Assembly: GCF_000720635.1 (NCBI RefSeq)
Contig: NZ_JOCF01000088.1
Span: forward strand, 1 to 48,880
Reading direction: 5' to 3'
From: Streptomyces sp. NRRL WC-3742
Lineage (GTDB): Bacteria; Actinomycetota; Actinomycetes; Streptomycetales; Streptomycetaceae
Length of the DNA stretch: 48,880 bases
The notes under the pieces were generated by a model. It was not told where the DNA came from, did no database searches, and was given only the letters and a program-made list of their open reading frames with translations. How positions within the stretch are numbered: the stretch's first letter is position 1; each line of letters opens with the position of its first letter. A program made the position numbers and the translations under genes. Shown in pieces: positions 6,630 through 26,152 of the stretch.

Positions 6630-8162
6630 CTATGCCTGCAGCAGCGCTTGGTACTTGTGCAGGGGTGTGTTCTCGTCCAGCGGGGCGATCGCGGCGACGT
6701 AGCCGTCCGGGCGGACCATGATCCGGCCGCCGTTCGGCAGGCCGTAGCGGGCGGCCGCCAGACCGTCCGGGTCCTGGAACACGGCGTCGTAGCCGGTCGG
6801 GGCCGTGGCGGCGGCGCCGACCAGCAGCTGACGGGCCGTGGTGCCGGGCAGCGGCGCGGGGGCGGTCCCGTTGGCCGCGACGGTGAGCAGCACGTGGTCG
6901 TGGACGGCGGCGAGGGCGGCGCGCAGCTCCGGGCCGGCGGCGGGAAGGTGGTCGCCGGCGTGGAGCTTGCCGTCCCCGCGGCCCTGGACCACGATCGGGC
7001 TCTTCCGGTAGGCGACGGCGGTCTCCTCGGTGCGGTCGGCCATCGCCTGCCGGACCGGGGCGAGGCTGGTGAGCAGGTGCATGCCCTTGTTGCGCAGCTT
7101 CTGCGCGATCGGGTTGGCGAGGGTGCCGACCCGGGTGAGGGTGCCGGCGAACTGGATCACCTGGGCGCCGACCGGGTGGCGCTCCGCGTGGTAGCTGTCG
7201 AGCAGGGTCGCGGGGGCCTGGCCGGAGTGGACCAGGGCGAGCTTCCAGGCGAGGTTGTGGGCGTCCTGGATGCCGGTGTTCATGCCCTGGCCGCCCGCCG
7301 GGCTGTGCACGTGGGCGGCGTCGCCGACCAGCAGCACCCGGCCGACCCGGTACTCGGGCACCTGGGCGTGGTGCACCTCGAAGACGGTGAGCCAGCGCGC
7401 GTCCCGGATCCGGATCGGACGCTCGGCGCGCTCGTCGACGACCTGCTGGAGCCACTCCTGGGTCGCGGTGCGCCCGTCGTCCGTGGCGATGTTCGCGATC
7501 AGGCGCAGCCGGTCGCCCTCCATCGGGAAGACCAGCAGCGGGCCCTGGTGCGGCGAGAAGAAGGTGTACATGCTGTGCGGGTCGAGCTCGTGGTCGGCGT
7601 TCACGTCGCCCATGAGGAACTTCTCGCCCTTGAACCTGCCCGCCAGGGCGCTGCCGACCAGTTTGCGGGCCTGGCTGTGTCCGCCGTCGGCGCCGACCAG
7701 CCAGCCGGTGCCGACGGTCTCCCGACGACCGTCGGCGTGCTCCAGCACCGCCTGGACACCGTGCTCGTCCTGGGTGAGGCCCGTCAGCGTCACCTCGCGC
7801 TCGACGCTGACGCCGTGCTCGTCGAGGGCCTTGGTGAGGATGCGCTCGGTCTCGGTCTGCGCGATGGTCACCGAGAACGGAAAGGGGCTGTCCACCAGGT
7901 CCAGCGCGATCCTGGCGACGACCTCGCCGTCGGAGTGCATCTCCATCGCGGTGGTCCGCACGCCGTTCCGTATCAGCTCGTCGACCAGGCCCAGCCGTTC
8001 GAACATCTCCAGGCTGCGGGCGTGCACCATGATGGCGCGCGACTCGGTGGTCGGCTCGGCCAGCCGGTCCACGATTCGCACCGGCACCCCGCGCCGGGCC
8101 AGCTCCAGGGCACAGGTCAGCCCCACGGGGCCGGCACCTACGACAATGATCGGGTCGCTCAC
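6630..8162 (-). CDS. FAD-dependent aromatic monooxygenase (PHBH fold)
   Basis: A 510-residue class A flavoprotein hydroxylase. It has the dinucleotide motif VVGAGPVG (about residues 7-14), the DG motif GADGGHSQARKLVG (about 157-170) and the GD motif LLVGDAAHVHSPAGGQGMN (about 277-295). A C-terminal thioredoxin-like tail is present, as in PgaE/RdmE-type polyketide and phenol hydroxylases. It would use NAD(P)H and O2 to hydroxylate an aromatic ring; the substrate is unknown. GTG 8162 was preferred over GTG 8174 because GAGG lies six bases upstream. It is the last gene of a three-gene minus-strand operon divergent from a LysR regulator. Confidence 0.92.
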   Translation of the reverse strand: MSDPIIVVGAGPVGLTCALELARRGVPVRIVDRLAEPTTESRAIMVHARSLEMFERLGLVDELIRNGVRTTAMEMHSDGEVVARIALDLVDSPFPFSVTIAQTETERILTKALDEHGVSVEREVTLTGLTQDEHGVQAVLEHADGRRETVGTGWLVGADGGHSQARKLVGSALAGRFKGEKFLMGDVNADHELDPHSMYTFFSPHQGPLLVFPMEGDRLRLIANIATDDGRTATQEWLQQVVDERAERPIRIRDARWLTVFEVHHAQVPEYRVGRVLLVGDAAHVHSPAGGQGMNTGIQDAHNLAWKLALVHSGQAPATLLDSYHAERHPVGAQVIQFAGTLTRVGTLANPIAQKLRNKGMHLLTSLAPVRQAMADRTEETAVAYRKSPIVVQGRGDGKLHAGDHLPAAGPELRAALAAVHDHVLLTVAANGTAPAPLPGTTARQLLVGAAATAPTGYDAVFQDPDGLAAARYGLPNGGRIMVRPDGYVAAIAPLDENTPLHKYQALLQA

Positions 8163-8214
8163 AGCAGTCCTCACGTTCGTGCGCCCTTCTGGGGATCGGG
8201 TCTGGGGCCGGTGG

Positions 8215-8508
8215 TCATCGGACGAAGCCGGTGACCGTGTCGGCGATCTCCACCTGGGCCTCGGTCAGCAGCAGTTCAGGGAATCGGGCCAGCAGGCCGG
8301 TGACGTACGGGGCGGCGAAGTGCGCCTCGCAGGCGGCCCGGTCGGCGTACCACTCGGTCACCAGGAACCGTCCGTCGTCCTGGCGGCCCACCGCGTAGGC
8401 GAGCGCGCCCGGCTCCTGGCGGGTATGTTCCGCCGTGTCGCGCAGCAGGGCCTCCAACTCCTCTGCCCGCTCAGGTACGGCCTGCAGGATCGCGGTCACT
8501 GTGGTCAT
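8215..8508 (-). CDS. antibiotic biosynthesis monooxygenase (ABM) family protein
   Basis: A 97-residue single-domain ferredoxin-like protein. It has the ABM pattern of a first strand (TVTAILQAVPERAEELEALL), a central QEPGALAYAVGRQDDGRFLV, then TEWYADRAACEAHFAAPYV. Members act as small cofactor-free oxygenases or as quinol-handling partners of larger hydroxylases. Placement between a DUF1330 gene and an FAD hydroxylase fits an accessory role in the same aromatic oxidation. ATG 8508 was chosen: GAGAGG lies 6-12 bases upstream, and the longer frame upstream overlaps the intergenic region without coding bias. Confidence 0.88.
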   Translation of the reverse strand: MTTVTAILQAVPERAEELEALLRDTAEHTRQEPGALAYAVGRQDDGRFLVTEWYADRAACEAHFAAPYVTGLLARFPELLLTEAQVEIADTVTGFVR

Positions 8509-8575
8509 CTCACTGCCTCTCGAACCTCGTGTTCGGTATGAAGTGGTTCTGGTCGTCGTAGCCCGTGCCCGCCGG

Positions 8576-8869
8576 TCAGTCAGTGCCTTCGACGATGCGG
8601 AAGTCGCGCGCGAAGCCGTCGGGGAGGGCCGCCAGCGCCTTCTTGTACGCCTCGCTCTCGTAGGCCGCGACCGCCTGCTCAAAGCTGTCGAACTCGATCA
8701 GAACGACGCGTTCCGTGATTCCGGCCTCGTGGGCGACGACTCGACCTCCACGGGACAGGACGCGCCCGCCCGCGGCCCCGACAGCCGGACCCGCCAGCTC
8801 GATGTAGGCAGTCAGCGTCTCAGGGTCGGAAATGGCGGGGTAGACACTGGCCCAGTAGCCCTTGGCCAT
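8576..8869 (-). CDS. DUF1330 family protein
   Basis: A 97-residue alpha/beta-barrel-like small protein beginning MAKGYWASVYPAISDPETLT and ending RDFRIVEGTD. It carries the DUF1330 hallmarks GGRVLSRGG and VLIEFDSFEQAVAAYESEAY. DUF1330 proteins are dimeric ferredoxin-like folds with no fixed reaction. The gene has an excellent ribosome binding site (AGGAGGT, 5-6 bases before ATG 8869) and is first in the operon, so its level probably sets that of the ABM and FAD oxygenase genes behind it. Transcription presumably starts in the 8870-9057 region shared with the divergent LysR gene. Confidence 0.88.
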   Translation of the reverse strand: MAKGYWASVYPAISDPETLTAYIELAGPAVGAAGGRVLSRGGRVVAHEAGITERVVLIEFDSFEQAVAAYESEAYKKALAALPDGFARDFRIVEGTD

Positions 8870-8981: not shown

Positions 8982-8998
8982 CTTGATGTGCCGTCAAG
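8982..8998. promoter_or_regulatory. candidate LysR-type operator in the divergent promoter
   Basis: CTTGA-N7-TCAAG is a perfect 5-bp inverted repeat with the T-N11-A spacing typical of LysR-family boxes. It lies in the 188-base region between the divergent DUF1330 gene and the LysR gene. The near-identical direct repeats CGGATCGTCAT (8956-8966) and CGGATCGTTAT (9028-9038) flank it. Binding by the adjacent regulator is inferred. Confidence 0.45.
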
Positions 8999-9057
8999 GG
9001 AAAGAGCGGTACGGCATAGACTCAGAACGGATCGTTATCAATCGGCAAGGGGGGCGC

Positions 9058-9960
9058 GTGGCGCCGGACACGGTGAGCCTGCGGTACTTCCTGGTGCTGG
9101 CACAGGAGTTGAACTTCACCCGCGCGGCTGCACGGATCGGTATCGCACAGCCCGCACTCAGCACCCGGATGCGCCGGTTGGAGGCGGAACTCGGTACGGC
9201 CCTGCTGGTCCGCAACACGCGCAGCGTCGTATTGACCACGGCCGGTGCGGCTTTGGCGGAGTCCGCGCCGCCCGCGCTGGCGGCGCTGGACCGGGCATGG
9301 GACACCGCCCGGAGTGCGGCAGCCGGTGAACTGGGCACGCTGCGCATCGGATACAGCCTCAGCACCGGGGCCGAGACGGCACCGGCCCTGGTGGACAGGC
9401 TGATGCGCGGCACCAGCGGACTCGAGGTCCGCGCGGTCCCGATGGCGACACCGGAGATCTCCCCCGCGGTCGCCGACGGCCGCATCGATGCCGGGATCAC
9501 CCGCGGTGAACAGCCGGGCCGTGGCGTGCGCCGGTACCTGCTGCGGCGTGGGCGCATCGGCGTCCAGCTGGCGCAGCACCATCCGCTGGCCGAACACCCG
9601 GAGATCGAGATCGCCGACGCGGCCGCGTATCCGCTGCGACTCCCGGACCGTGCGTCCAACCCCGTGATCCACGATCAGCTGTCCGCACTGTTCCGAGACA
9701 TCCGACCACACCCCCGATTCCACACGCCCGCAGTCTCCTTCGACATGTCCCAGCGCGACCTGCGCGACGGGGTCACCCTCGCCCCGGCCGGAGAAACCGC
9801 GGTCGCGGCACAAGCGGCCGGTCTCACCTGGCGACCGCTCCGGGGCGCGCCCAGCCTGACGATCCACCTGGTCCTCCCACGCGAGCAGTCGCCACTGCAC
9901 CGCCGCATCCGTGCCGTCGCCAAGACCCTGGCGCACGAACTGCACTGGCTGCCGGACTGA
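9058..9960 (+). CDS. LysR-family transcriptional regulator
   Basis: A 300-residue LTTR. The N-terminal winged helix-turn-helix (about residues 5-63) has YFLVLAQELNFTRAAARIGI and AQPALSTRMRRLEAELGTAL. A periplasmic-binding-protein-like effector domain follows from about residue 90 (LGTLRIGYSLSTGAE). GTG 9058 is preferred: AAGGGG lies just upstream and the family's N-terminus normally starts a few residues before the helix-turn-helix, whereas an ATG at 8983 would fall inside the inverted repeat. Its divergent position relative to the oxygenase operon makes it the likely activator of that operon and of itself. The inducer is unknown. Confidence 0.93.
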   Translation: MAPDTVSLRYFLVLAQELNFTRAAARIGIAQPALSTRMRRLEAELGTALLVRNTRSVVLTTAGAALAESAPPALAALDRAWDTARSAAAGELGTLRIGYSLSTGAETAPALVDRLMRGTSGLEVRAVPMATPEISPAVADGRIDAGITRGEQPGRGVRRYLLRRGRIGVQLAQHHPLAEHPEIEIADAAAYPLRLPDRASNPVIHDQLSALFRDIRPHPRFHTPAVSFDMSQRDLRDGVTLAPAGETAVAAQAAGLTWRPLRGAPSLTIHLVLPREQSPLHRRIRAVAKTLAHELHWLPD

Positions 9961-14175: not shown

Positions 14176-17100
14176 GTGACGGAAGTGGAATCGGAATTAA
14201 AAGTCAGTATACCAATCAACGGCCCTGATGATCCGGAAGTCCTGGATCGGTGGAAGCTTCCCCGGGTCCGGGGGCTGGCCCAGTACTTCGAGCGGACCTG
14301 CGACCGGGTTCCAGGAAACACCGCCGTTACGTGTGGTCCCGTCTCGCTCGGTTATGCCGAACTGGACCAGCGGGCCAATCGGCTCGCCCGTCTGCTGCGA
14401 CAGCGCGGTGCGGGCCCGGGGCAGAGCGTGGGGATCCTTCTGGAGCGCTCACCGGACAGCTACGTCGCCCTGCTCGCGGTCCTGAAGTCCGGGGCGGCCT
14501 ACGTGCCGCTGGACCCCTCGTACCCGGCCGACCGGGTCGAGTTCATCGCCGGGGACGCCGGGCTGTGCGCCCTGGTGACCACCTCGGCCATGCGGCACCG
14601 GACCCACGGACTGCCCTGCCCGGTCCTCGAGTTGGACGAGTCGGCGGCCCAGGTGGCCGCGCAGTCCGGGGAGCGTCCGGATGTCGCGATCGAGTCCGAG
14701 TCGGTCTGCTACGTCATCTACACCTCGGGCACCACCGGGCGGCCCAAGGGCGTGGCCGTCTCGCACGCCAGCATCGTCAACTTCCTGCGGTCCGTGGCGC
14801 CGATCTACCAGGTGCGGGAGGAGGACCGGGTCTACCAGGGGCTGTCGCTCGCCTTCGACTTCTCGGTCGAGGAGATCTGGCCGGCCTGGGTGGTGGGCGC
14901 CACCCTGGTGGCGGGGCCGACCAACGAACGGCGCGTCGGCGAGGGGCTGGGCGCCTTCCTGGTCGAGCAGGCGATCACCGTGCTGTGCTGCGTGCCGACC
15001 CTGCTGACCACCATCGAGGCGGAGGTCTCCACCCTGCGCAGCCTCCTGGTCAGCGGCGAGGCGTGCCCGCCCGACCTGGTCAAACGGTGGTCCCGGCCGG
15101 GGCGCCGCTTCCTGAACGTCTACGGTCCGACCGAGTCCACGGTCAGCGCGACCTGGGGCGAGCTCTCGCCCCGCCGGCCGGTCACGATCGGCAGACCCCT
15201 GCCCAGCTACCGGGTCTACATCCTCGACGAGCAGCTGCGCCCGGTGCCGGAGGGCGAGAGCGGGGAGATCTGCATCGGGGGTCCGGGCGTCGCGATCGGC
15301 TACCTCAACCGGCCCGACCTGACGGCGGAGAAGTTCGTCGTGAACCCGGTGGCCCGCGACCGGGAGGAGTGCCCGCGGATCTACCGCACCGGCGACCTGG
15401 GGCGGCTGACCCCGACCGGCGAGATCGAGTTCCTGGGCCGGATCGACACCCAGGTCAAGATCCGCGGGTACCGGATCGAGCTGGCGGAGATCGAGGAGGT
15501 GCTCCGCGAGGACCCGGCGGTGGAGAACGCCGTGGTCGTCCCGCGTCAGCACGACGGGGTGGTCCAGGACCTGGTCGGCTACGTCACGCTGACGGACCAC
15601 GGGCCGAGGGACGAGGACGCACTGCGCGAACGCCTGCACACCACGCTGCGCGGACGGCTGCCCGCGTACATGATCCCCTCGTTCGTCGAGGTGCTGGACC
15701 GGTTTCCCCTGCTGGCCGCGGACAAGGTCGACAGGCGCGCGCTGCCCGCCCCCACCTCGCCCCCGCTGGCCAAGCGCGCACAGCCGCACGCGGCGCCCGC
15801 CACCGCGACGGAGCGCCGGCTGACCACCGTGTGGCAGGAGGTCCTCGGAATCGGTGAACTCTCCGCCGAGGACGACTTCTTCCTCGACCTGGGCGGCCAC
15901 TCGATGGCGGCGGCCAGGCTGATGTCCAGGCTCCGCCTCCTGCCGGAGCTGTCCCACCTGGCCATGGGGGACCTCTACGCGCACCCCACGGTGCGGGCTC
16001 TGGCCGCGTTCATCGACACCTCCGCCGCCGAGGCCGCCGCAGCCGACGCGGCCGCCGAAGCTGCGGGGTCGGAGCCGGACCGGGTCCGGGGGCCCGCTGC
16101 GCGCCGGCACTCCACCCTCCGGGTCGCCGCCTGCGGAGTGGCCCAACTCGCGGTTCTGTACAGCTGGTTGATGGTCTTCGGAATGCCGGTCCTGGTTCTG
16201 CTGTACCGGCTGCTGGTCGCCGGGAACCAGCCGACGCCCGGCGTGGGCACCGGCGGCCCGCTCGGACACCTCGCGCACCTCGGGTACGGCGAGTTCGTCC
16301 CGCTGGAGATCGCCTGGACGCTGCTGGACGTGCTGCTGATCCCGGCGCTCGCCTGCCGGCTGCTGCTGGCCCGGGTGCGCCCTGGCTGGTACCCGCTCTG
16401 GGGCGTGACCTACCTGAGGTTCTGGCTCTACGGCAAGGTGATGGCGAGCTCACCCGTCGGGCTCCTGGCCGGATCGCCCCTGCTGCCGCCCTTCCTGCGG
16501 CTGCTCGGGGCGAGGATCGGCCGCGGCTGCCACGTGTCGTCACCCTTCGGCCTGCCCCGGTTCGTCGAACTCGGCGACCACGTGAGCGTGGGCTACGGGG
16601 CGCGGGTGCAGTCCTTCGCGGTCGAGAACGGCTGGCTCCGGCTCGGGCCGGTCCGGCTCGGGAGCGGCAGCTGCGTGGGGACCAACAGCGTCCTCCTGCC
16701 GGGTGCCGTACTCGGTGACGACGCGACGGTGGGCGAGCAGTCCCTCATCGCCGCCGACCAGGCCGTGCCCGCCGGCGAGCACTGGGCCGGCTCCCCGGCC
16801 CGCGCGCAGGAAGCCACCCCGCCCCTGCTCCAGGCCATGGCGGAGCAGCCCGACGACCGGCCCTGGCCGCTGCGGGTGCTGGCCGGCTACGCCGTCGGCG
16901 CCCTCGCGCTCATCCTGGTACCGCTGGTGATCGCCGCCACCGGCTCGGCCCTGATCGGCTGGGTCTGGTGGGAGTGGGGGCCGCGCTGGGCGCTGCTGTC
17001 GACCCTGGCGGCCGGGCCGCTGTTCGTCCTGACCACCTGCACCCTGGTGGTCCTGGTCAAGCGGGCGGTGATGCCCCGGGCCCGGGCCGGTATCTACGCG

Positions 17101-18249
17101 CAGCGCAGCGGCTTCGGGGTGCGCAAGTGGATCGCCGACGGCCTCCTGACCACCAGCCTGACCCTGACGCACTCGCTCTACTCCACGCTCTACCTGGTGC
17201 CGTTCCTGCGCCTGCTCGGCGCCCGGACCGGGCGCTGGTCCGAGGTCGCCACGGTCAGCTTCGTCGATCCGGACATGCTTATCATCGGCGAGCGCAGCTT
17301 CGTCGCGGACGTCAGCGTGGTGGCCCCGGCCGTCTTCCACCGGGGCCGGATCGCCCTGGCCCCGGCCGAGGTCGGCAAGCGCAGCTTCGTCGGCAACGGC
17401 GCGCTGCTGCCCGGCGCCTGCCGGATGGGCGACAACAGCCTCCTCGGCGTGCACTCCATCGCGCCCAGCAGGCCCATCGATCCGGAGACGACCTGGCTCG
17501 GCTCACCGGCGATCTTCCTGCCCCGGCGCGAGGAGAGCCAGAACTTCGCACCCAAGTACACCTACGACCCCAGCCCGGGCCTGATCGCCGCCCGGCTGGC
17601 CATCGAGTACCTGCGCGTCACCCTCCCCTCGACCATCGGCGCGCTCTCCGCGCTCGCCGCCCTGTACGCGAGCGTCGAGCTGGGCCGCACCACCTCGCCC
17701 CTGGTCCTCCTCCTGCTGGGGCCGGTCCTGCTGCTGGGCACCGGGGCCGTCGCCACCCTGGTGGTCGTGCTCCTCAAGTGGCTGGTCATCGGCCGCTACC
17801 GACCCCGGGTGGAACCGCTGTGGGGCATCTGGGTGCGCCGCACCGAGCTGATCACCGGACTGTTCGAGAACCTCGTGGTACCGGCGCTGCTGAACTCCCT
17901 CACCGGCACCCCCGCCGCGCCGTGGGTCATGCGACTGTTCGGGGCCCGGATCGGGCGCCGGGTCTGGCTCAACACGACGTACCTCACCGAGTTCGACCTG
18001 GTCGAGGTCGGCGACGACGCGGCCGTCGGGGAGTTCACCTCCCTGCAGACCCACCTGTTCGAGGACCGGGTCATGAAGATGTCCGAGGTCGTCGTCGGAC
18101 CGGCGGGCTCGGTCGGCGCCCGGTGCGTGGTCCTCTACGACGCGCAGGTCGGCGCCGGGACCACCCTGGACGCGATGTCCCTGGTCATGAAGGGCGAGCA
18201 CCTGCCGCCCCGGACGCAGTGGCGCGGCATACCCGCCCGCCGCTGTTGA
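14176..18249 (+). CDS. Pls-type membrane nonribosomal peptide synthetase (cationic homopoly-amino-acid synthetase)
   Basis: A 1357-residue protein with the layout of epsilon-poly-L-lysine synthetase. An adenylation domain (about 30-540) has YTSGTTGRPKGV, FDFSVEEIW, NVYGPTES, YRTGDL and a terminal KVDRRALP Lys. A carrier domain has DLGGHSMAA with Ser576 for phosphopantetheine. Then come six helices in three pairs (about 648-735, 900-965 and 1145-1205), each pair followed by a hexapeptide-repeat left-handed beta-helix domain (C1-C3). It should load an amino acid and polymerise it iteratively at the membrane; no thioesterase is present. The diaminobutyrate aminotransferase and aspartokinase genes that follow suggest 2,4-diaminobutyrate as monomer. 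GTG 14176 (GAGG four bases upstream) is preferred; ATG 14164 and 14053 are alternatives. Codon 8 is a rare TTA. Confidence 0.92.
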   Translation: MTEVESELKVSIPINGPDDPEVLDRWKLPRVRGLAQYFERTCDRVPGNTAVTCGPVSLGYAELDQRANRLARLLRQRGAGPGQSVGILLERSPDSYVALLAVLKSGAAYVPLDPSYPADRVEFIAGDAGLCALVTTSAMRHRTHGLPCPVLELDESAAQVAAQSGERPDVAIESESVCYVIYTSGTTGRPKGVAVSHASIVNFLRSVAPIYQVREEDRVYQGLSLAFDFSVEEIWPAWVVGATLVAGPTNERRVGEGLGAFLVEQAITVLCCVPTLLTTIEAEVSTLRSLLVSGEACPPDLVKRWSRPGRRFLNVYGPTESTVSATWGELSPRRPVTIGRPLPSYRVYILDEQLRPVPEGESGEICIGGPGVAIGYLNRPDLTAEKFVVNPVARDREECPRIYRTGDLGRLTPTGEIEFLGRIDTQVKIRGYRIELAEIEEVLREDPAVENAVVVPRQHDGVVQDLVGYVTLTDHGPRDEDALRERLHTTLRGRLPAYMIPSFVEVLDRFPLLAADKVDRRALPAPTSPPLAKRAQPHAAPATATERRLTTVWQEVLGIGELSAEDDFFLDLGGHSMAAARLMSRLRLLPELSHLAMGDLYAHPTVRALAAFIDTSAAEAAAADAAAEAAGSEPDRVRGPAARRHSTLRVAACGVAQLAVLYSWLMVFGMPVLVLLYRLLVAGNQPTPGVGTGGPLGHLAHLGYGEFVPLEIAWTLLDVLLIPALACRLLLARVRPGWYPLWGVTYLRFWLYGKVMASSPVGLLAGSPLLPPFLRLLGARIGRGCHVSSPFGLPRFVELGDHVSVGYGARVQSFAVENGWLRLGPVRLGSGSCVGTNSVLLPGAVLGDDATVGEQSLIAADQAVPAGEHWAGSPARAQEATPPLLQAMAEQPDDRPWPLRVLAGYAVGALALILVPLVIAATGSALIGWVWWEWGPRWALLSTLAAGPLFVLTTCTLVVLVKRAVMPRARAGIYAQRSGFGVRKWIADGLLTTSLTLTHSLYSTLYLVPFLRLLGARTGRWSEVATVSFVDPDMLIIGERSFVADVSVVAPAVFHRGRIALAPAEVGKRSFVGNGALLPGACRMGDNSLLGVHSIAPSRPIDPETTWLGSPAIFLPRREESQNFAPKYTYDPSPGLIAARLAIEYLRVTLPSTIGALSALAALYASVELGRTTSPLVLLLLGPVLLLGTGAVATLVVVLLKWLVIGRYRPRVEPLWGIWVRRTELITGLFENLVVPALLNSLTGTPAAPWVMRLFGARIGRRVWLNTTYLTEFDLVEVGDDAAVGEFTSLQTHLFEDRVMKMSEVVVGPAGSVGARCVVLYDAQVGAGTTLDAMSLVMKGEHLPPRTQWRGIPARRC
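14197..14199 (+). promoter_or_regulatory. rare TTA leucine codon (likely bldA-dependent translation)
   Basis: Codon 8 of the synthetase gene, counted from GTG 14176, is TTA, and ATA, another rare codon, follows four codons later. In Streptomyces TTA is read only by the developmentally expressed bldA tRNA, so genes carrying it are usually delayed to the antibiotic-producing phase. The reading frame at this point is fixed by the uninterrupted downstream domain, so the codon is in frame for starts 14053, 14164 and 14176. Confidence 0.7.
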
Positions 18250-18414
18250 CCCCGTCCGCACGCGCTCGACCCCCACGCCCGCACACGCTCCGGAGCCGCG
18301 CCCCTGCCGGCCCCGGTCCCGGCCGCGGCGTCATCCCGCCGTGGCCGTGCACTCGGCGAGCCACGACCCCGCCGAAAGCGATCTCTCCATGCCACCCCCC
18401 CCACGGAGGCTTTC

Positions 18415-19794
18415 ATGACCTCGTTCCAGCGACTCGACCCACTGGCCGTCCCGCAGGTGACCGGCGATCTGCCGGGCCCGCTCTCCGCCGGGTTCCTCGC
18501 CCGCCAGCAGGGCTACGAGTCCAACGCCCGCAGCTACCCCCGGCGTCTGCCGATCGCCATCGAGCAGGCGTCCGGCAGCCTCGTCCGGGACATGGACGGC
18601 AACGTCTTCATCGACTTCCTGGCGGGCGCCGGTGTGCTCTCGCTCGGCCACAACCACCCCGAGCTGGTCGCCGCTGTCACCGCCCAACTCGACGTGCTCA
18701 CCCACGGGTTGGACTTCCCGACCCCCGTGCGGGAGAAGTTCGTCGAGGCCCAGCTCTCCATGCTGCCGGCGTCGATGCGCTCCCGCATGAAGATCCACTT
18801 CTGCGGGCCCACCGGCGCCAACGCCGTCGACGCGGCCCTCAAGCTGTGCAAGACCGCCACCGGGCGCGGCGACGTCATCGCCTTCCAGGGCGGCTTCCAC
18901 GGCAGCACCCACGCCGCGATGGCGCTCACCGGGCTGGTCTCCCAGAAGCGCCCGGTGCCCAACGGCGTTCCCGGCGTCCACTTCTTCCCCTACTCCTACT
19001 GCGCCCGCTGCCCCGTCGGCCTGACCCCCGACAGCTGCGCCACCAACTGCGTCGGCTACCTGGAGCGGGCCCTCACCGACGGCAACGGCGGGGTACCGCT
19101 GCCCGCCGCCGTGGTGATGGAGATGGTCCAGGGCGAGGGCGGCATCATCCCCGCGACCGTGGACTTCGCCCGCCGGGTGCGCGCGCTGACCCGGGAACTC
19201 GGCATCCCGCTGGTGGTCGACGAGGTCCAGACCGGCTGCGGGCGCACGGGCACCTGGTTCGCCTTCGAGGAGTACGGCATCGAACCCGACGTCGTCATCG
19301 CCTCCAAGGCGCTGAGCGGCATCGGCGCCCCGGTCGCGCTCATCATCTACGACGCCGAACTCGACACCTGGGCCCCCGGCGCCCACACCGGGACCTTCCG
19401 CGGCAACCAACTGGCCTTCGCCGCCGGGGTGGAGGCCGTGCGCGTCATCCGGCGCGACGACGTCCTGGGCAACGTCGCCCGGCGCGGCGAGCAGATCGCG
19501 GACCGCCTCAAGCCATTGCTGGACGAACCGTGGGTCGCCGAGGTGCGCGGGCGCGGCCTGATCTGGGGCATCGAGTTCGCCGACCCCGCTGACCACCGTC
19601 CCGCGGGCGGCCTCGCCGCGGCCGTCCAGCGTGAGGCGCTGCGCGGCGGGCTGATCGTCGAGGTCGGCGGCCGTGACGACGACGTGGTGCGGCTGATGCC
19701 CCCGCTCAACGTCACCGCGGCAACCGTCGACACGGCCTGCTCGATCCTGCTGGACGCGATCCGCACCGCGAAAGCCACTCACGGGGAGGTCTGA
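18415..19794 (+). CDS. dat: 2,4-diaminobutyrate 4-aminotransferase (class III, Dat/EctB type)
   Basis: A 459-residue PLP enzyme of the class III aminotransferases. It interconverts L-aspartate 4-semialdehyde plus glutamate with L-2,4-diaminobutyrate plus 2-oxoglutarate. Seen: GPTGANAVDAALKL, the PLP-stacking FQGGFHGSTHAAM, the cofactor Asp in VVDEVQTGCGRTG, and Lys298 in ASKALSGIG. The cysteine-rich insert PYSYCARCPVGLTPDSCATN is characteristic of the Dat subgroup. The start has GGAGG five bases upstream of ATG 18415. It lies 165 bases behind the synthetase and 4 bases before the aspartokinase gene. No ectA or ectC is nearby, so diaminobutyrate is probably the monomer for the synthetase and not an ectoine precursor. 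Confidence 0.9.
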   Translation: MTSFQRLDPLAVPQVTGDLPGPLSAGFLARQQGYESNARSYPRRLPIAIEQASGSLVRDMDGNVFIDFLAGAGVLSLGHNHPELVAAVTAQLDVLTHGLDFPTPVREKFVEAQLSMLPASMRSRMKIHFCGPTGANAVDAALKLCKTATGRGDVIAFQGGFHGSTHAAMALTGLVSQKRPVPNGVPGVHFFPYSYCARCPVGLTPDSCATNCVGYLERALTDGNGGVPLPAAVVMEMVQGEGGIIPATVDFARRVRALTRELGIPLVVDEVQTGCGRTGTWFAFEEYGIEPDVVIASKALSGIGAPVALIIYDAELDTWAPGAHTGTFRGNQLAFAAGVEAVRVIRRDDVLGNVARRGEQIADRLKPLLDEPWVAEVRGRGLIWGIEFADPADHRPAGGLAAAVQREALRGGLIVEVGGRDDDVVRLMPPLNVTAATVDTACSILLDAIRTAKATHGEV

Positions 19795-19798
19795 GCAG

Positions 19799-21064
19799 AT
19801 GAGCCTGATCGTGCAGAAGTACGGTGGATCGTCCGTGTACAGCACGGAGCGGATCAAGCAGGTCGCCGAGCACATCGTGGCCACCCGCCGAGCCGGCCAC
19901 GACGTGGTCGTGGTGGTCTCCGCGATGGGCGACACCACCGACGAACTCCTCGACCTGGCGGGCGAGGTGACGGACAACGCGGCGCCGCGCGAGCTGGACG
20001 TGCTGCTGACCGCGGGCGAGCGGATCTCCAACGCGCTGATGGCCATCGCCGTCGAGTCCCTCGGCGTCGAGGCGCGCTCGTTCTCGGGCGCGCAGGCCGG
20101 CATCCACACCACCGCGACGCCCGGGCGGGCACGCATCATCGACGTGCAGCCCGACCGGGTCCGCCGGAGCCTCGACCGGGGCGCGGTCGCCCTGGTCGCG
20201 GGCTTCCAGGGCATCAGCCGCGAGACCGGGGACGCCACCACCCTCGGGCGCGGGGGCTCCGACACCACCGCCGTCGCCCTGGCCGCCGCGCTCAAGGCCG
20301 ACCTCTGCGAGATCTACACGGACGTCGACGGCGTCTACTCCGCCGACCCGCGCATCGTCCCCGACGCCCGGCTGCTGACCCACGTCAACTACGAGATCAT
20401 GCGCGAACTCGCCGTCAACGGGGCCAAGGTGCTGGCCCCGCGCAGCGTGGAGTACGCCAGTCGGCACCGGGTCCCGGTCCGCGTCCGCTCCTCGTACGGC
20501 GACGACCCCGGCACCATGGTGACCGGCGCCTCGGCCGTCCCGTCCGCCGAGTACTCCAACGTCGTCGGCGTCGCGCACGACGCCACCGGGGCGAGGATCA
20601 CGCTCGGCAACGTACCCGACACCCCCGAACTCACCAACCGCGTCCTGCAGGTGGTGACCGACATCGAAGCCGAACTCCACTTCACCGTCCAGGACACCAC
20701 CCGGACCTCCCCGGGCATGACGGACATCTCGCTGCTCCTGCCCGCGCAGGACGGCCCCGCCGTCCTGCGCTCCCTGCACCCGCACTGCAGGGAACTCGGC
20801 ATCGAGGACCCGCACTACACGGAACGCGTCGGCAAACTCTCGCTCGTCGGCACCGGACTGCTCGCGCAGCCCGGCGTCCTGGCGACCTGCTGCGAGACCC
20901 TGGCCGCCGCCGGGATCCAGCTGGAGACCATCTCCATCTCGGACCTCCACGTCACCGCCTTCTGCCCCGCCGACCAACTGCCGGAAGCCGTCCGCGCCTG
21001 GCACTCCGCCTTCGACCTCGGCGCCTCCCAACTCGCCGCCGTCCACGCGGGAACAGGCCGCTGA
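19799..21064 (+). CDS. ask: aspartokinase
   Basis: A 421-residue aspartate kinase, the first step from L-aspartate towards aspartate semialdehyde. The catalytic domain begins MSLIVQKYGGSSVYST and includes LLTAGERISNALMA, GRGGSDTTAVALAAAL and IYTDVDGVYSADPRIV. Two ACT domains follow (about 265-421). The usually invariant effector-site segment ISTSEIRISV is replaced here by ISISDLHVTA near residue 379, and GMTDIS stands near 306. The gene starts 4 bases after the aminotransferase stop with GGGGAGGT upstream, so it is tightly coupled. Its role in this operon is most likely a dedicated, possibly desensitised, supply of precursor. Confidence 0.93.
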   Translation: MSLIVQKYGGSSVYSTERIKQVAEHIVATRRAGHDVVVVVSAMGDTTDELLDLAGEVTDNAAPRELDVLLTAGERISNALMAIAVESLGVEARSFSGAQAGIHTTATPGRARIIDVQPDRVRRSLDRGAVALVAGFQGISRETGDATTLGRGGSDTTAVALAAALKADLCEIYTDVDGVYSADPRIVPDARLLTHVNYEIMRELAVNGAKVLAPRSVEYASRHRVPVRVRSSYGDDPGTMVTGASAVPSAEYSNVVGVAHDATGARITLGNVPDTPELTNRVLQVVTDIEAELHFTVQDTTRTSPGMTDISLLLPAQDGPAVLRSLHPHCRELGIEDPHYTERVGKLSLVGTGLLAQPGVLATCCETLAAAGIQLETISISDLHVTAFCPADQLPEAVRAWHSAFDLGASQLAAVHAGTGR

Positions 21065-21082
21065 CACCGCCCGCCCCCGCCC

Positions 21083-21118
21083 CCGTGGCCCGGCCGGAAC
21101 CTCCCGGCCGGGCCACGG
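21083..21118. terminator. bidirectional hairpin terminator
   Basis: A perfect 15-bp stem (CCGTGGCCCGGCCGG and its complement) with a 6-base loop lies 18 bases after the aspartokinase stop. It also lies 20 bases past the stop of the convergent gene at 21138. It closes both transcripts. Confidence 0.8.
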
Positions 21119-21137
21119 ATGTGTTTCGACCGGGAGG

Positions 21138-21857
21138 TCACACGGCGATCGGCAGCTCCTCGATCCAGCACTCCACGGACCTCGCGGTGATCGCGGTCAG
21201 GGCCTCCTCGGCGTCGGCCCTGGTCAGGAAGACGCTTACGCCGGAGACCTCGCGGCTCTCGTCGCGGACGACCCGGGTCATGATGACGAAGACATGGCGG
21301 TGTCGCTCGCGCCGAACCCGGGTGACGTCCCCGGCCTGGCCGGCCGTCAGCGCTTCGACGAGTTCCTCGGCCGAGGCGATCTCGAGGCCGGACTCGACAC
21401 CGTCCAGGGGCTGGACGGGCCAGCGGATCGGCTTGTACGGCTGGAAGGTGTGGTAGAAGCTGGGCTGCAGGTGGTCCAGTACGCCCTCCGTCCAGCCGAA
21501 GGCCATGGCGACGATGTAGTCGAGCTCGCCCTGGCTCTCCAGCACGAACACGCGCTCGTCCTTGCCGAACCGCACGCTGGGGTGGCCCGCCCTGATCTCC
21601 GCGCTCTCGGCCTCCGTTGCGCATCGGACCGCCAGGCCGCGGTGGTTGTCGCGGAGCTTCATCACGGCCACCGGCTTGAACAGCATCTCGATCGTCGTCC
21701 GGGCCTCACCGGGACCGTCGTACTCGTCGAGGGTGCGCAGCAGGAGCTGGCCGTGACTCGCCGAGTGGGCCCGCAGATGGAACCGGCGCTCACTGCGGAA
21801 GAGCTCCCGGCCGGGCACGAGGTCGAGGTCGCTGTTGAACCAGCTGCTGTCCGTCAT
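21138..21857 (-). CDS. hypothetical protein
   Basis: A 239-residue soluble protein with good third-position bias, beginning MTDSSWFNSDLDLVPGRELF. The N-terminal two thirds contain HLRAHSASHGQLLLRTLDEY and AFGWTEGVLDHLQPSFYHTF. The C-terminal part (FVIMTRVVRDESREVSGVSV, FLTRADAEEALTAI) resembles small ferredoxin-like domains found in Streptomyces hypotheticals. No catalytic motif is recognised. It is convergent with the aspartokinase gene across a shared terminator, so it is not part of that operon. Confidence 0.75.
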   Translation of the reverse strand: MTDSSWFNSDLDLVPGRELFRSERRFHLRAHSASHGQLLLRTLDEYDGPGEARTTIEMLFKPVAVMKLRDNHRGLAVRCATEAESAEIRAGHPSVRFGKDERVFVLESQGELDYIVAMAFGWTEGVLDHLQPSFYHTFQPYKPIRWPVQPLDGVESGLEIASAEELVEALTAGQAGDVTRVRRERHRHVFVIMTRVVRDESREVSGVSVFLTRADAEEALTAITARSVECWIEELPIAV

Positions 21858-22962: not shown

Positions 22963-22978
22963 ATGTGCCATTGCACAT
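22963..22978. promoter_or_regulatory. small inverted repeat in the aminopeptidase leader
   Basis: ATGTGC-CATT-GCACAT is a perfect 6-bp inverted repeat, 18 bases before the preferred start codon. It could be an operator or a short RNA hairpin affecting translation. It also contains the alternative ATG at 22963. Confidence 0.3.
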
Positions 22979-22995
22979 GTCACATCATGCTCCCC

Positions 22996-24645
22996 ATGAG
23001 AAAAGCCATCGCCCTCCTCGCGGCAGCGGCGGCCGTCGCCACCCTCGGCGTGACCTCCGCCTCCGCCGCCGACCCCGACATCGCCGCCCAGGAGGACTTC
23101 AACCCGGCCCGCCTGGCCTGGACCTCCTGTAACGACGCCACCACCCCCGCCCTCCAGTGCGCGATGCTGGAGGTGCCGGTCGACTACAAGGACCCCCGCG
23201 GCCGCAAGATCAGCATCAAGGTCAACCGCCTGCCCGCCACCGCGCCCAAGGACAAGCAGCAGGGCCCGATCCTGCTCAACCCCGGCGGCCCCGGCGACTC
23301 CGGGCTCTGGATGCCCGCGTACATCTCCGGCAAGATCCCCGCCGACGTCGCCTCCACCTACGACTGGATCGGCTTCGACCCGCGCGGCACCAACGCCAGC
23401 GACCCCCATGTCGTCTGCGACGCCCACTACTTCGACGCGGAGCGCCCCGACTACCAGGTCAGCCAGGGCACCGCGAAGGCGTGGCTGAAGAAGGCCGCCG
23501 GCTACGCCGCCGACTGCGCGGCGGACTGGTCCTGGCTGCTGCCGCACATGACCACCGTCGACAGCGCCCGCGACATGGAGAGCATCCGGCGCGCCCTCGG
23601 CGCCCCGAAGATCAACTTCTACGGCGGTTCCTGGGGCACCTCGCTGGGCTCCACCTACGGCCAGCTCTTCCCCTCGCACGTGCGCCGGATGGTCCTGGAC
23701 AGCATCGTCGGACCGACCATCAGCTGGTACGACCACAACATCCTGCAGGACAAGGAACACCAGCGCCGCTTCGACGCCTTCGCCGAGTGGGCCGCCAAGG
23801 CCGACTCCGTCTACCACCTCGGCACCGACGCCGCCACCGTGAAGAAGGCGTACGCCCAGGTCGAGGACGCGCTGCGCAAGGAGCCGGTCGCGGCCGCGCC
23901 CGCCCCCGGCAAGATCGGCCCCGCCGAGTTCGAGGACACCTTCTACGGCGGCGGCTACAACTTCCTGCGCTGGCCCCGGATGGCGACCGTGCTCTCCGGC
24001 TTCCTGACCCAGCACGACACCCGGCCGCTGGCCATCGCGTACAACAAGTACGCCGCCCCGTCGGCCACCGACGACGGCACCTTCCCCGCGTACAACGCCG
24101 CCCAGTGCACCGAGAACGCCTGGCCGCGCGACTGGGAGGTCTGGAAGAAGGACCAGGCGAAGGTCGACGCCGTCGCGCCCTTCTACACGTACAACAATAT
24201 GTGGTACAATGCCGCCTGCATGTTCTGGCCCTACCAGGGCAACCAGAACGGGCGCCTGAAGATCAACGGCAAGGGCCTGCCCCCGGTGCTGCTCTTCCAG
24301 GCCACCGAGGACGCCGCCACCCCGTACGAGGGCGGGCTCGCCATGCACGACGCGCTGCCCGGCTCCAAGCTCGTCGTCCAGAACGGCGGCAGCTTCCACG
24401 AGATCCTCTTCCACGGCAACGCCTGTCTGGACGACACCTTCACCGCCTACCTGCGCGACGGCAGCCTGCCGGACGGCAAGGGCCGCATCGCCAAGACCTG
24501 CGCGCCCGAGGCGGACCCGGAGCCCGTGTACGTGACCCCGCCGCCGGCCGCCGCCAAGGCGCTAACGGGTGCGGCGGCCGCGGAGGCCGGGGCGGGCCGG
24601 CTCGCGCCCGGTGACCCGGAGGCCGTCCACGGCGTCCTGCGCTGA
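22996..24645 (+). CDS. secreted S33-family tripeptidyl aminopeptidase (Tap/SlpD type)
   Basis: A 549-residue alpha/beta hydrolase exported by a Sec signal peptide (MRKAIALLAAAAAVATLGVT, SASAA, cleavage near residue 25). It releases N-terminal peptides extracellularly. The oxyanion segment LLNPGGPGDSGLW and the nucleophile YGGSWGTSLGS (Ser212) are clear. The acid is in the FQATEDAATPYEGG region and the catalytic His in GGSFHEI. ATG 22996 is chosen because it gives a proper signal peptide; ATG 22963 and 22987 would add Cys/His-rich residues. In Streptomyces these enzymes process secreted proteins and inhibitors. Its stop lies 1 base from that of the convergent MFS gene. Confidence 0.92.
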   Translation: MRKAIALLAAAAAVATLGVTSASAADPDIAAQEDFNPARLAWTSCNDATTPALQCAMLEVPVDYKDPRGRKISIKVNRLPATAPKDKQQGPILLNPGGPGDSGLWMPAYISGKIPADVASTYDWIGFDPRGTNASDPHVVCDAHYFDAERPDYQVSQGTAKAWLKKAAGYAADCAADWSWLLPHMTTVDSARDMESIRRALGAPKINFYGGSWGTSLGSTYGQLFPSHVRRMVLDSIVGPTISWYDHNILQDKEHQRRFDAFAEWAAKADSVYHLGTDAATVKKAYAQVEDALRKEPVAAAPAPGKIGPAEFEDTFYGGGYNFLRWPRMATVLSGFLTQHDTRPLAIAYNKYAAPSATDDGTFPAYNAAQCTENAWPRDWEVWKKDQAKVDAVAPFYTYNNMWYNAACMFWPYQGNQNGRLKINGKGLPPVLLFQATEDAATPYEGGLAMHDALPGSKLVVQNGGSFHEILFHGNACLDDTFTAYLRDGSLPDGKGRIAKTCAPEADPEPVYVTPPPAAAKALTGAAAAEAGAGRLAPGDPEAVHGVLR

Positions 24646-24646
24646 C

Positions 24647-26152
24647 CTACGACCCCTTCTGCGACGGGGCGACCTCACTGAGCGGCGCGGCCAGGGACTC
24701 CAGGCTGCGCCGCTCGGCCTTCACCCCGATCGCCGCCTCCACCAGACCGGCCAGCGCCATCAGCGCGGCGCCGACGCAGAAGGCGAGGGTGGTGTCCGAG
24801 ACCTCGCCGCTGCTCACCAGGCCGTTGAACAGCAGCGGGCCGCTGATGCCGCCGACGGCCGTGCCCACGGCGTAGAAGAAGGCGATGCACATCGCCCTGG
24901 TCTCCAGTGGGAAGATCTCGCTGACCGTCAGATAGGCCGCGCTCGCCCCGGCCGAGGCGAGGAACAGCACCGCCGTCCAGCAGGCCGTCATGGTGGTGGC
25001 GGAGAGCGCGCCGCGCTGGAAGAGGGCGGCGGTGGCGAACAGCAGCAGGCCCGAGCCGAGGTAGGTGCCGGCGATCATCGGTTTGCGGCCGACGGAGTCG
25101 AAGAGGTGGCCGAGCAGCAGCGGGCCGAGGAAGTTGCCGAGGGCGATCACCGCGAAGTAGTAGCCGGTGTCGCCCTCGGGCACGTCGAAGTAGGTGGTGA
25201 GGATGGTGGCGTACCCGAAGGTGACGGCGTTGTAGAGGAACGCCTGGCCGATGAAGAGCGCCAGGCCGAGGGCGGTGCGGCGCGGGTAGCGGACGATCAC
25301 GGTGCGCACGATCGTCGTGAATCCGATGGGTCCGCGTTCGCGGATCCGGATCGGCGGCCCGTCGACGGGCGGCAGCCGGCGGCCGGTCTCCCGCTCGATC
25401 GCCTGCTCCGCCTCGGCCACGACCCGTTCGGCCTCGTCCGCCCGGCCGTGGGTGAACAGCCAGCGGGGGCTCTCCGGGACGTGGCGGCGCACCAGGAGGA
25501 TGACCAGGCCCAGGACGACGCCGATGGCGAAGGCGAGGCGCCAGCCGACGTCGGTGGCGAACAGTGAGGTGTTCAGCAGGGCGATCGAGGCGAAGGCGCC
25601 CAGGCCCGCGCCGATCCAGAAGCTGCCGTTGATGACGAGGTCGATCCGGCCGCGCAGCCGGGCGGGGATCAGCTCGTCGATGGCGGAGTTGATCGCCGCG
25701 TACTCGCCGCCGATGCCGAAGCCGGTGAAGAAGCGGCAGAGGAAGAAGAACCAGGCCGTCCAGGAGACGGCGGTCACGGCCGTGGCCGCGAGGTAGACGG
25801 CGAGCGTCACCATGAAGAGCTTCTTGCGGCCCAGCCGGTCCGTCAGCCAGCCGAAGAACAGGGCGCCGCAGCAGGCCCCCGCCACGTACACGGCCGCCGC
25901 GACGGTGGTCACCTGGGCGGTGGTGATGCTGATGCCGCTGCCGTCCTCGGCGAGACGGCCGGCCATGTTCCCGACGATCGTCACCTCCAGGCCGTCCAGG
26001 ATCCAGACGGTGCCCAGGCCGATGACGATGCGCCAGTGCCAGCGGGACCACGGCAGCCGGTCGAGCCGGGCGGGGACGTCGGTCTCGACCACGCCGGGCG
26101 GGAGTGGGCGCGGCCGTTGGGATGACGGGGACGGCTTCACGGGATCGGTCAT
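24647..26152 (-). CDS. MFS transporter, sugar/metabolite porter type
   Basis: A 501-residue, 12-helix major facilitator protein. The loop 2-3 signature is GWLTDRLGRKKLF, the helix 4-5 motif is CRFFTGFGIGGEYAAINSAI, PESPRWLFTHGR follows helix 6, and the second-half repeat is LLGHLFDSVGRKPM. These are the marks of the sugar-porter branch, which also moves aromatic acids and other metabolites. The N-terminal 35 residues are a Pro-rich cytoplasmic extension. GGAAGG lies about 8 bases before the start. Its substrate cannot be read from the sequence, and its only neighbour on the same strand is a small membrane protein. Confidence 0.9.
   Translation of the reverse strand: MTDPVKPSPSSQRPRPLPPGVVETDVPARLDRLPWSRWHWRIVIGLGTVWILDGLEVTIVGNMAGRLAEDGSGISITTAQVTTVAAAVYVAGACCGALFFGWLTDRLGRKKLFMVTLAVYLAATAVTAVSWTAWFFFLCRFFTGFGIGGEYAAINSAIDELIPARLRGRIDLVINGSFWIGAGLGAFASIALLNTSLFATDVGWRLAFAIGVVLGLVILLVRRHVPESPRWLFTHGRADEAERVVAEAEQAIERETGRRLPPVDGPPIRIRERGPIGFTTIVRTVIVRYPRRTALGLALFIGQAFLYNAVTFGYATILTTYFDVPEGDTGYYFAVIALGNFLGPLLLGHLFDSVGRKPMIAGTYLGSGLLLFATAALFQRGALSATTMTACWTAVLFLASAGASAAYLTVSEIFPLETRAMCIAFFYAVGTAVGGISGPLLFNGLVSSGEVSDTTLAFCVGAALMALAGLVEAAIGVKAERRSLESLAAPLSEVAPSQKGS

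Follow-up and report, generated by a model that had tools for sequence, protein, structure and literature searches.

A probable pldA-dat-ask operon for gamma-poly-L-2,4-diaminobutyrate in Streptomyces sp. NRRL WC-3742

The window analyzed in this work, a stretch of 48,880 nucleotides from Streptomyces sp. NRRL WC-3742, contains three consecutive genes on the plus strand which, judged from their sequences, very probably form a pldA-dat-ask operon for the synthesis of gamma-poly-L-2,4-diaminobutyrate. This operon type has already been described and the locus is an intact further member of it. Gene content, predicted fold, pocket residues, clade and the poor conservation of the ACT domains in the aspartokinase are the observations reported here. 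The initial annotation had proposed a locus for a 2,4-diaminobutyrate (Dab) homopolymer, and this is supported by domain order, pocket residues, phylogeny and gene partners, from which we infer the substrate. Points added by the present analysis are a subgroup of pocket variants, ACT domains that are less conserved in the operon aspartokinases than in their housekeeping partners from the same genome, and an M1 peptidase that occurs at scattered loci.

The first gene (14176..18249, starting with GTG at 14176 in a frame that is open from 14053) encodes a PldA-like synthetase of 1357 amino acids that scores 548 bits against the Pls/PosA model TIGR02353 (cut-off 423). After a gap of 165 bases it is followed by dat (18415..19794), specifying a class-III aminotransferase of 459 amino acids, which reaches 449 bits with the model for diaminobutyrate-2-oxoglutarate aminotransferase (TIGR00709, cut-off 402) and stays below the cut-off of the EctB model. 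Four bases further on, ask (19799..21064) encodes an aspartokinase of 421 amino acids with intact kinase motifs and poorly conserved ACT domains, identified with Pfam and family models; it lies above the cut-offs of the aspartate kinase models NF005154, NF005155 and TIGR00657 and below that of NF005153. All three open reading frames thus occupy the places given for them in the initial annotation and pass family cut-offs. A terminator-like hairpin behind ask (21083..21118, plus strand, 15 pairs of which 14 are G-C) probably closes the transcription unit, and the segment from 21060 to 21140 folds far better than shuffled sequence (z -4.3). The absence of ectA and ectC, likewise claimed before, holds for the 31 open reading frames of the window that were scanned with Pfam; with these genes missing and the aminotransferase below the EctB cut-off, an ectoine-type use of dat and ask was rejected. 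A search for EctC in the whole genome gave no match, the controls being equally silent. Upstream of the operon, open reading frames for an FAD-binding monooxygenase, an ABM-domain protein and a LysR-type regulator (6630-8682 and 8983-9960) perhaps represent another small cluster.

In the synthetase, Pfam recognizes an adenylation domain (14287..15750, PF00501/PF13193), a thiolation or carrier domain with Ser576 in the motif GGHS (15817..16014, PF00550) and one stretch of hexapeptide repeats (PF00132). The C-terminal 718 residues are modelled with high confidence (mean pLDDT 93.7, pTM 0.91) as three successive units of a helix hairpin and a left-handed beta-helix, which bears out the previously assigned A-T-(TM2-C)x3 architecture. 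The hairpin TM1-TM2 (16114..16365, model helices and hydropathy) precedes C1 (16483..16845, the PF00132 stretch, with matches to hexapeptide acyltransferases), TM3-TM4 (16870..17070, hydropathy and model) precedes C2 (17194..17553, from the model), and TM5-TM6 (17575..17787, from the model, hydropathy marking just residues 1169-1208) precedes C3 (17914..18246). This third repeat, which contains QTHLFEDRVMKM with His1293, holds 41 of the 68 columns that are invariant among 58 rows and is proposed as the candidate condensation centre. Free-standing hexapeptide acyltransferases pack as trimers, and by analogy C1, C2 and C3 might pack as an intramolecular trimer. No beta-helix or trimer account of Pls C domains, nor a cryo-EM structure, is apparent by title among the literature matches listed.

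By alignment, the adenylation pocket comprises D228, F229, E232, C271, L291, S293, V315, V323 and S324, to which K517 in the motif AADKVD is added from motif positions; the numbering follows what we take to be the usual convention for such codes. The resulting letters, DFECLSVVS, describe a pocket that is Dab-like in its residues and differs from the lysine code, such that Pls proper was rejected as an identity for the enzyme. The alignment was anchored on the code printed for PosA (PMC10522769), and according to the same source the second code position is Phe in PDAP and PDAB synthetases, Ala in Pls and Met in PosA. Phe is present in all 80 fetched loci and therefore does not single out Dab on its own. 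The sixth position is Ser in 24 of these loci (20 of the PldA clade and four of the PddA clade) and Gly in the other 56. The commonest code of the PldA clade is DFECLSAVT (16/20 loci, including that of S. celluloflavus NRRL B-2493); the window agrees with it at seven of nine positions and departs from it by Val for Ala at the seventh and Ser for Thr at the ninth. DFECLSVVS is shared by the window with L010 and L012 (Catenulispora) and the same-genus loci L113 and L114, DFECLSVVT is found in L009 (Kitasatospora GP82) and likewise in L115, and L054 and the same-genus L116 read DFEALSAVT and DFECLSLVT, respectively. All four PddA-clade loci carry DFECLSCVS, so that the Ser at the ninth position of the window is the state of that clade.

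In PosA, the side-chain amine of the substrate is contacted by Thr304 and Ser313 (PMC10522769), which by code order correspond to the seventh and ninth positions, and this pair varies inside the PldA clade. Residues at the two contact positions might accordingly reshape the pocket for another small diamino acid (2,3-diaminopropionate, Dap) or for a mixed polymer. We consider this quite improbable, as dat and ask supply Dab and not Dap and dat is kept next to the synthetase in four members of the variant subgroup (see below), namely the window, L009, L113 and L114; the sequence ends in L010 and L012, and L116 is without dat. The two-position series A/T, V/T, V/S, L/T (PldA clade) and C/S (PddA clade) constitutes a natural set for studying how these enzymes choose the length and the chirality of diamino acids.

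Two quick trees with SH-aLRT support and without bootstrap were calculated, one from 48 of 83 rows (35 left out) and one from all 86 rows, with S. celluloflavus NRRL B-2493 (L026) as the PldA reference and proxy for the published strains. In the 86-row tree a Dab clade of 28 rows (SH-aLRT 100) splits into four PddA rows (100) and 24 PldA rows (99). The window synthetase belongs to the latter, and the smaller tree agrees. Within the PldA clade, the window, L113, L114, L116, L009, L010 and L012 form a subgroup of seven rows (SH-aLRT 100) which comprises every row with Val or Leu at the seventh code position.

This placement also bears on the configuration of the monomer. The formation of poly-D-Dab involves the racemase PddB, reported to be constantly adjacent to PddA homologues (PMC8225329). 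Among the loci then compared, PddB adjoins the synthetase just in L020, L022, L025 and L027, that is, in all four PddA-clade loci, the first three of which are strains named in that study. No PddB-type racemase was found in the window, and the sole PddB match in the genome is partial (33% identity over residues 86-240) and presumably DapF, on which grounds poly-D-Dab was set aside. Together with the position in the PldA clade, these results favour L-Dab as the monomer. Only one feature, the pocket Ser in ninth place that the window shares with PddA, points to D instead; an enzyme making gamma-poly-D-Dab from D-Dab delivered by a racemase encoded elsewhere in the genome would fit this residue but not the clade of the synthetase nor the tight linkage of pddB in its relatives, and appears improbable.

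The gene partners point in the same direction as the pocket. In 18 of the 20 loci of the PldA clade, dat comes next after the synthetase gene; the two exceptions, L010 and L012, lie on contigs that end right there. An ask gene stands behind this dat in 15 of the 20 loci, and in L015 it is another dat, located upstream, that ask follows. Neither gene was detected around the 56 more distant loci as far as their flanks, some of them short, had been fetched. Within the genus, L113 and L114 carry both dat and ask, L115 has dat alone and L116 neither. The last case and the deviation of the window pocket from the commonest PldA code at two positions are among the points that we count against poly-L-Dab. 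Two loci show other sequence at the place expected for ask. In L009 a G/C-rich stretch of low complexity follows dat (L009:15500-16500), possibly an assembly fault, and in L054 an ACT-only stretch resembling the regulatory part of aspartokinases occurs right after dat (L054:12314-12790), where no kinase domain was found. A census of open reading frames of at least 130 amino acids in the surroundings of 27 loci, whose flanks differed in length, revealed no family recurring in more than five of them beyond antisense or overlapping frames of the operon genes.

The aspartokinases of the operons appear altered in their regulatory part. Operon and housekeeping enzymes from the same genome were paired for 18 genomes (L054, having no kinase row, was left out) and compared with LysC of C. 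glutamicum (3aaw). Mean identity in the kinase domain is 64% for the operon and 68% for the housekeeping copies, and in the ACT domains 38% and 61%, respectively. In every one of the 18 pairs the operon copy has the lower ACT identity; for L019 and L079 the figure is based on alignments of 44 and 17 residues, respectively. The kinase/ACT values of the window strain are 66/30% for the operon enzyme and 69/59% for the housekeeping enzyme encoded on C10. The ratios of ACT to kinase identity overlap slightly (operon 0.27-0.79, housekeeping 0.77-0.94). At nine sites, the housekeeping enzymes read VAQSSTGIS (16/18) or VAQSTTGIS (2/18), and the window operon copy reads VTQTSLGLS. Seven of these sites derive from mutants in Table 4 of PMC10464499, site 301 was added as it is mutated in 3ab4, and 311 was taken as a further site. 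The operon enzymes of L019 and L079 end shortly past the kinase domain, and no ACT stretch was found in these loci by tblastn with five ACT queries; the L079 match shows one in-frame TGA, and a frameshift or assembly fault is possible there. A feedback-resistant aspartokinase has been published for S. albulus (as cited in PMC9205021), and the aspartokinase of the window operon probably also ignores feedback by lysine and threonine, although divergence of ACT domains between paralogues can have other causes. The paired set provides natural enzymes for testing feedback resistance, useful for the overproduction of Dab and lysine. A further aspartokinase of the window's genome, with a weak ACT domain, is encoded at C4:193588-194865 (L117) near open reading frames that by eye are MetA-like, ATP-grasp-like and MFS-like. 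Rather doubtful is the wider proposition that the polymer of the seven-row subgroup may differ in composition or chirality and that the operon aspartokinases of the PldA clade are naturally free of feedback, two of them being kinase-only.

For the preferred product, gamma-poly-L-Dab, the following route can be envisaged. Ask would open the aspartate pathway and would probably be insensitive to feedback, as many residues of its ACT sensor are changed. An aspartate-semialdehyde dehydrogenase, assumed to be encoded elsewhere in the genome, would yield aspartate semialdehyde, which Dat would convert into L-Dab by transamination. L-Dab would then be adenylated by the A domain and loaded onto the carrier at Ser576, and the three membrane-anchored beta-helix C domains would link the Dab units via their side-chain amines, as in Pls, until a short polycation is released. 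This chemistry, the L-configuration and an antimicrobial effect of the product are what we infer from the family.

A close synthetase occurs in five of 70 same-genus genomes, the window's included, a figure that covers close relatives only as the census scored eight candidates per genome with E values up to 1e-290; some Pls/PosA domain above the cut-off is present in 69 of the 70. L113 and L114 have common flanks, and none of the 24 neighbouring open reading frames of the window was matched in the fetched stretches of the same-genus loci L113-L116. The operon may move or be lost often. Such patchiness and differing surroundings would also suit a silent or decayed cassette, perhaps acquired horizontally and devoid of a product, as would the outcome of a simple scan that found no sigma-70-type promoter (0.2 expected). 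Scans of this kind say little in high-GC actinomycetes, on the other hand, and three intact frames with conserved catalytic motifs make a dead cassette very improbable.

As regards self-protection, the initial annotation had seen no adjacent gene for degradation of the polymer. For M1 peptidases this stands in the window, where none of the PldII kind was found next to the operon, but it does not extend to the clade: five of the 20 PldA-clade loci (L011, L014, L015, L017 and L026) share a recurrent flank protein, whose L011 version Pfam classifies as an M1 peptidase. PldII, encoded beside Pls, is described to degrade epsilon-poly-L-lysine and has been postulated to protect the producer (PMC8117764). 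With this precedent, some PldA loci may rely on the peptidase of a neighbouring gene for protection. The M1 peptidase most similar to this protein in the window's genome lies directly behind a Pls gene with lysine code on C42, and M1 peptidases likewise follow Pls/PosA genes in G019, G053, G059 and G061. A TAP-like alpha/beta hydrolase encoded 1.9 kb downstream of ask (22963-24645), which may serve as a hydrolase, has a single, weak match among the loci tested (L074). It is convergent with a gene for an MFS transporter (24647-26152), and neither is conserved beside related operons. The genome encodes two more Pls/PosA synthetases, both with the pocket DAESIGTVV and thus with Ala at the second position where the window enzyme has Phe (C42:40759-44481 and C131:466-4473). 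With two lysine-code Pls homologues and a poly-Dab operon, the strain may be able to produce polycations of two kinds. Further Dat proteins are specified at C129:101-1411 (L106, 65% identical), beside a lysine/ornithine N-monooxygenase-like frame (by eye) in a siderophore-cluster-like setting, and at C4:157453-158793 (L107, Dat-like, 48%), near a decarboxylase-like frame and a siderophore-type ABC permease (by eye).

Among known systems, the ectABC operon for ectoine has a Dab aminotransferase in common with the window, where neither ectA nor ectC was found among the 31 open reading frames scanned. Ectoine operons at times carry a dedicated aspartokinase. Pls, the epsilon-poly-L-lysine synthetase, resembles the window enzyme in architecture and presumed mechanism but differs in its pocket (DAESIGTVV versus DFECLSVVS) and shares only 34-38% identity; we know of no case of dat or ask beside it. 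PosA, the delta-poly-L-ornithine synthetase, belongs to the same family and shares the A-domain contacts made by Asp and Glu, while its pocket (DMEHNGTVSK) and its single-gene operon are unlike the window (PMC10522769). The gamma-poly-D-Dab system pddA-pddB of Streptoalloteichus hindustanus and relatives (PMC8225329) comprises a synthetase of the same family with the same pocket Ser, and partner genes are also shared to some extent, two of the four loci having dat and one having ask. It differs in the adjacent pddB and in a separate clade with 55-57% identity to the window enzyme. The closest counterpart is the gamma-poly-L-Dab operon, with the gene order pldA, dat, ask (PMC8117764, legend to Fig. 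1C) and S. celluloflavus as producer (Takehara 2008; Yamanaka 2020; both as cited in PMC8117764). Compared with L026, the window has Val and Ser instead of Ala and Thr at the seventh and ninth code positions and, in contrast to the L026 flank, no M1 peptidase was found near its operon, but it agrees with this operon in gene content, gene order, architecture, clade and the pocket residues DFECLS.
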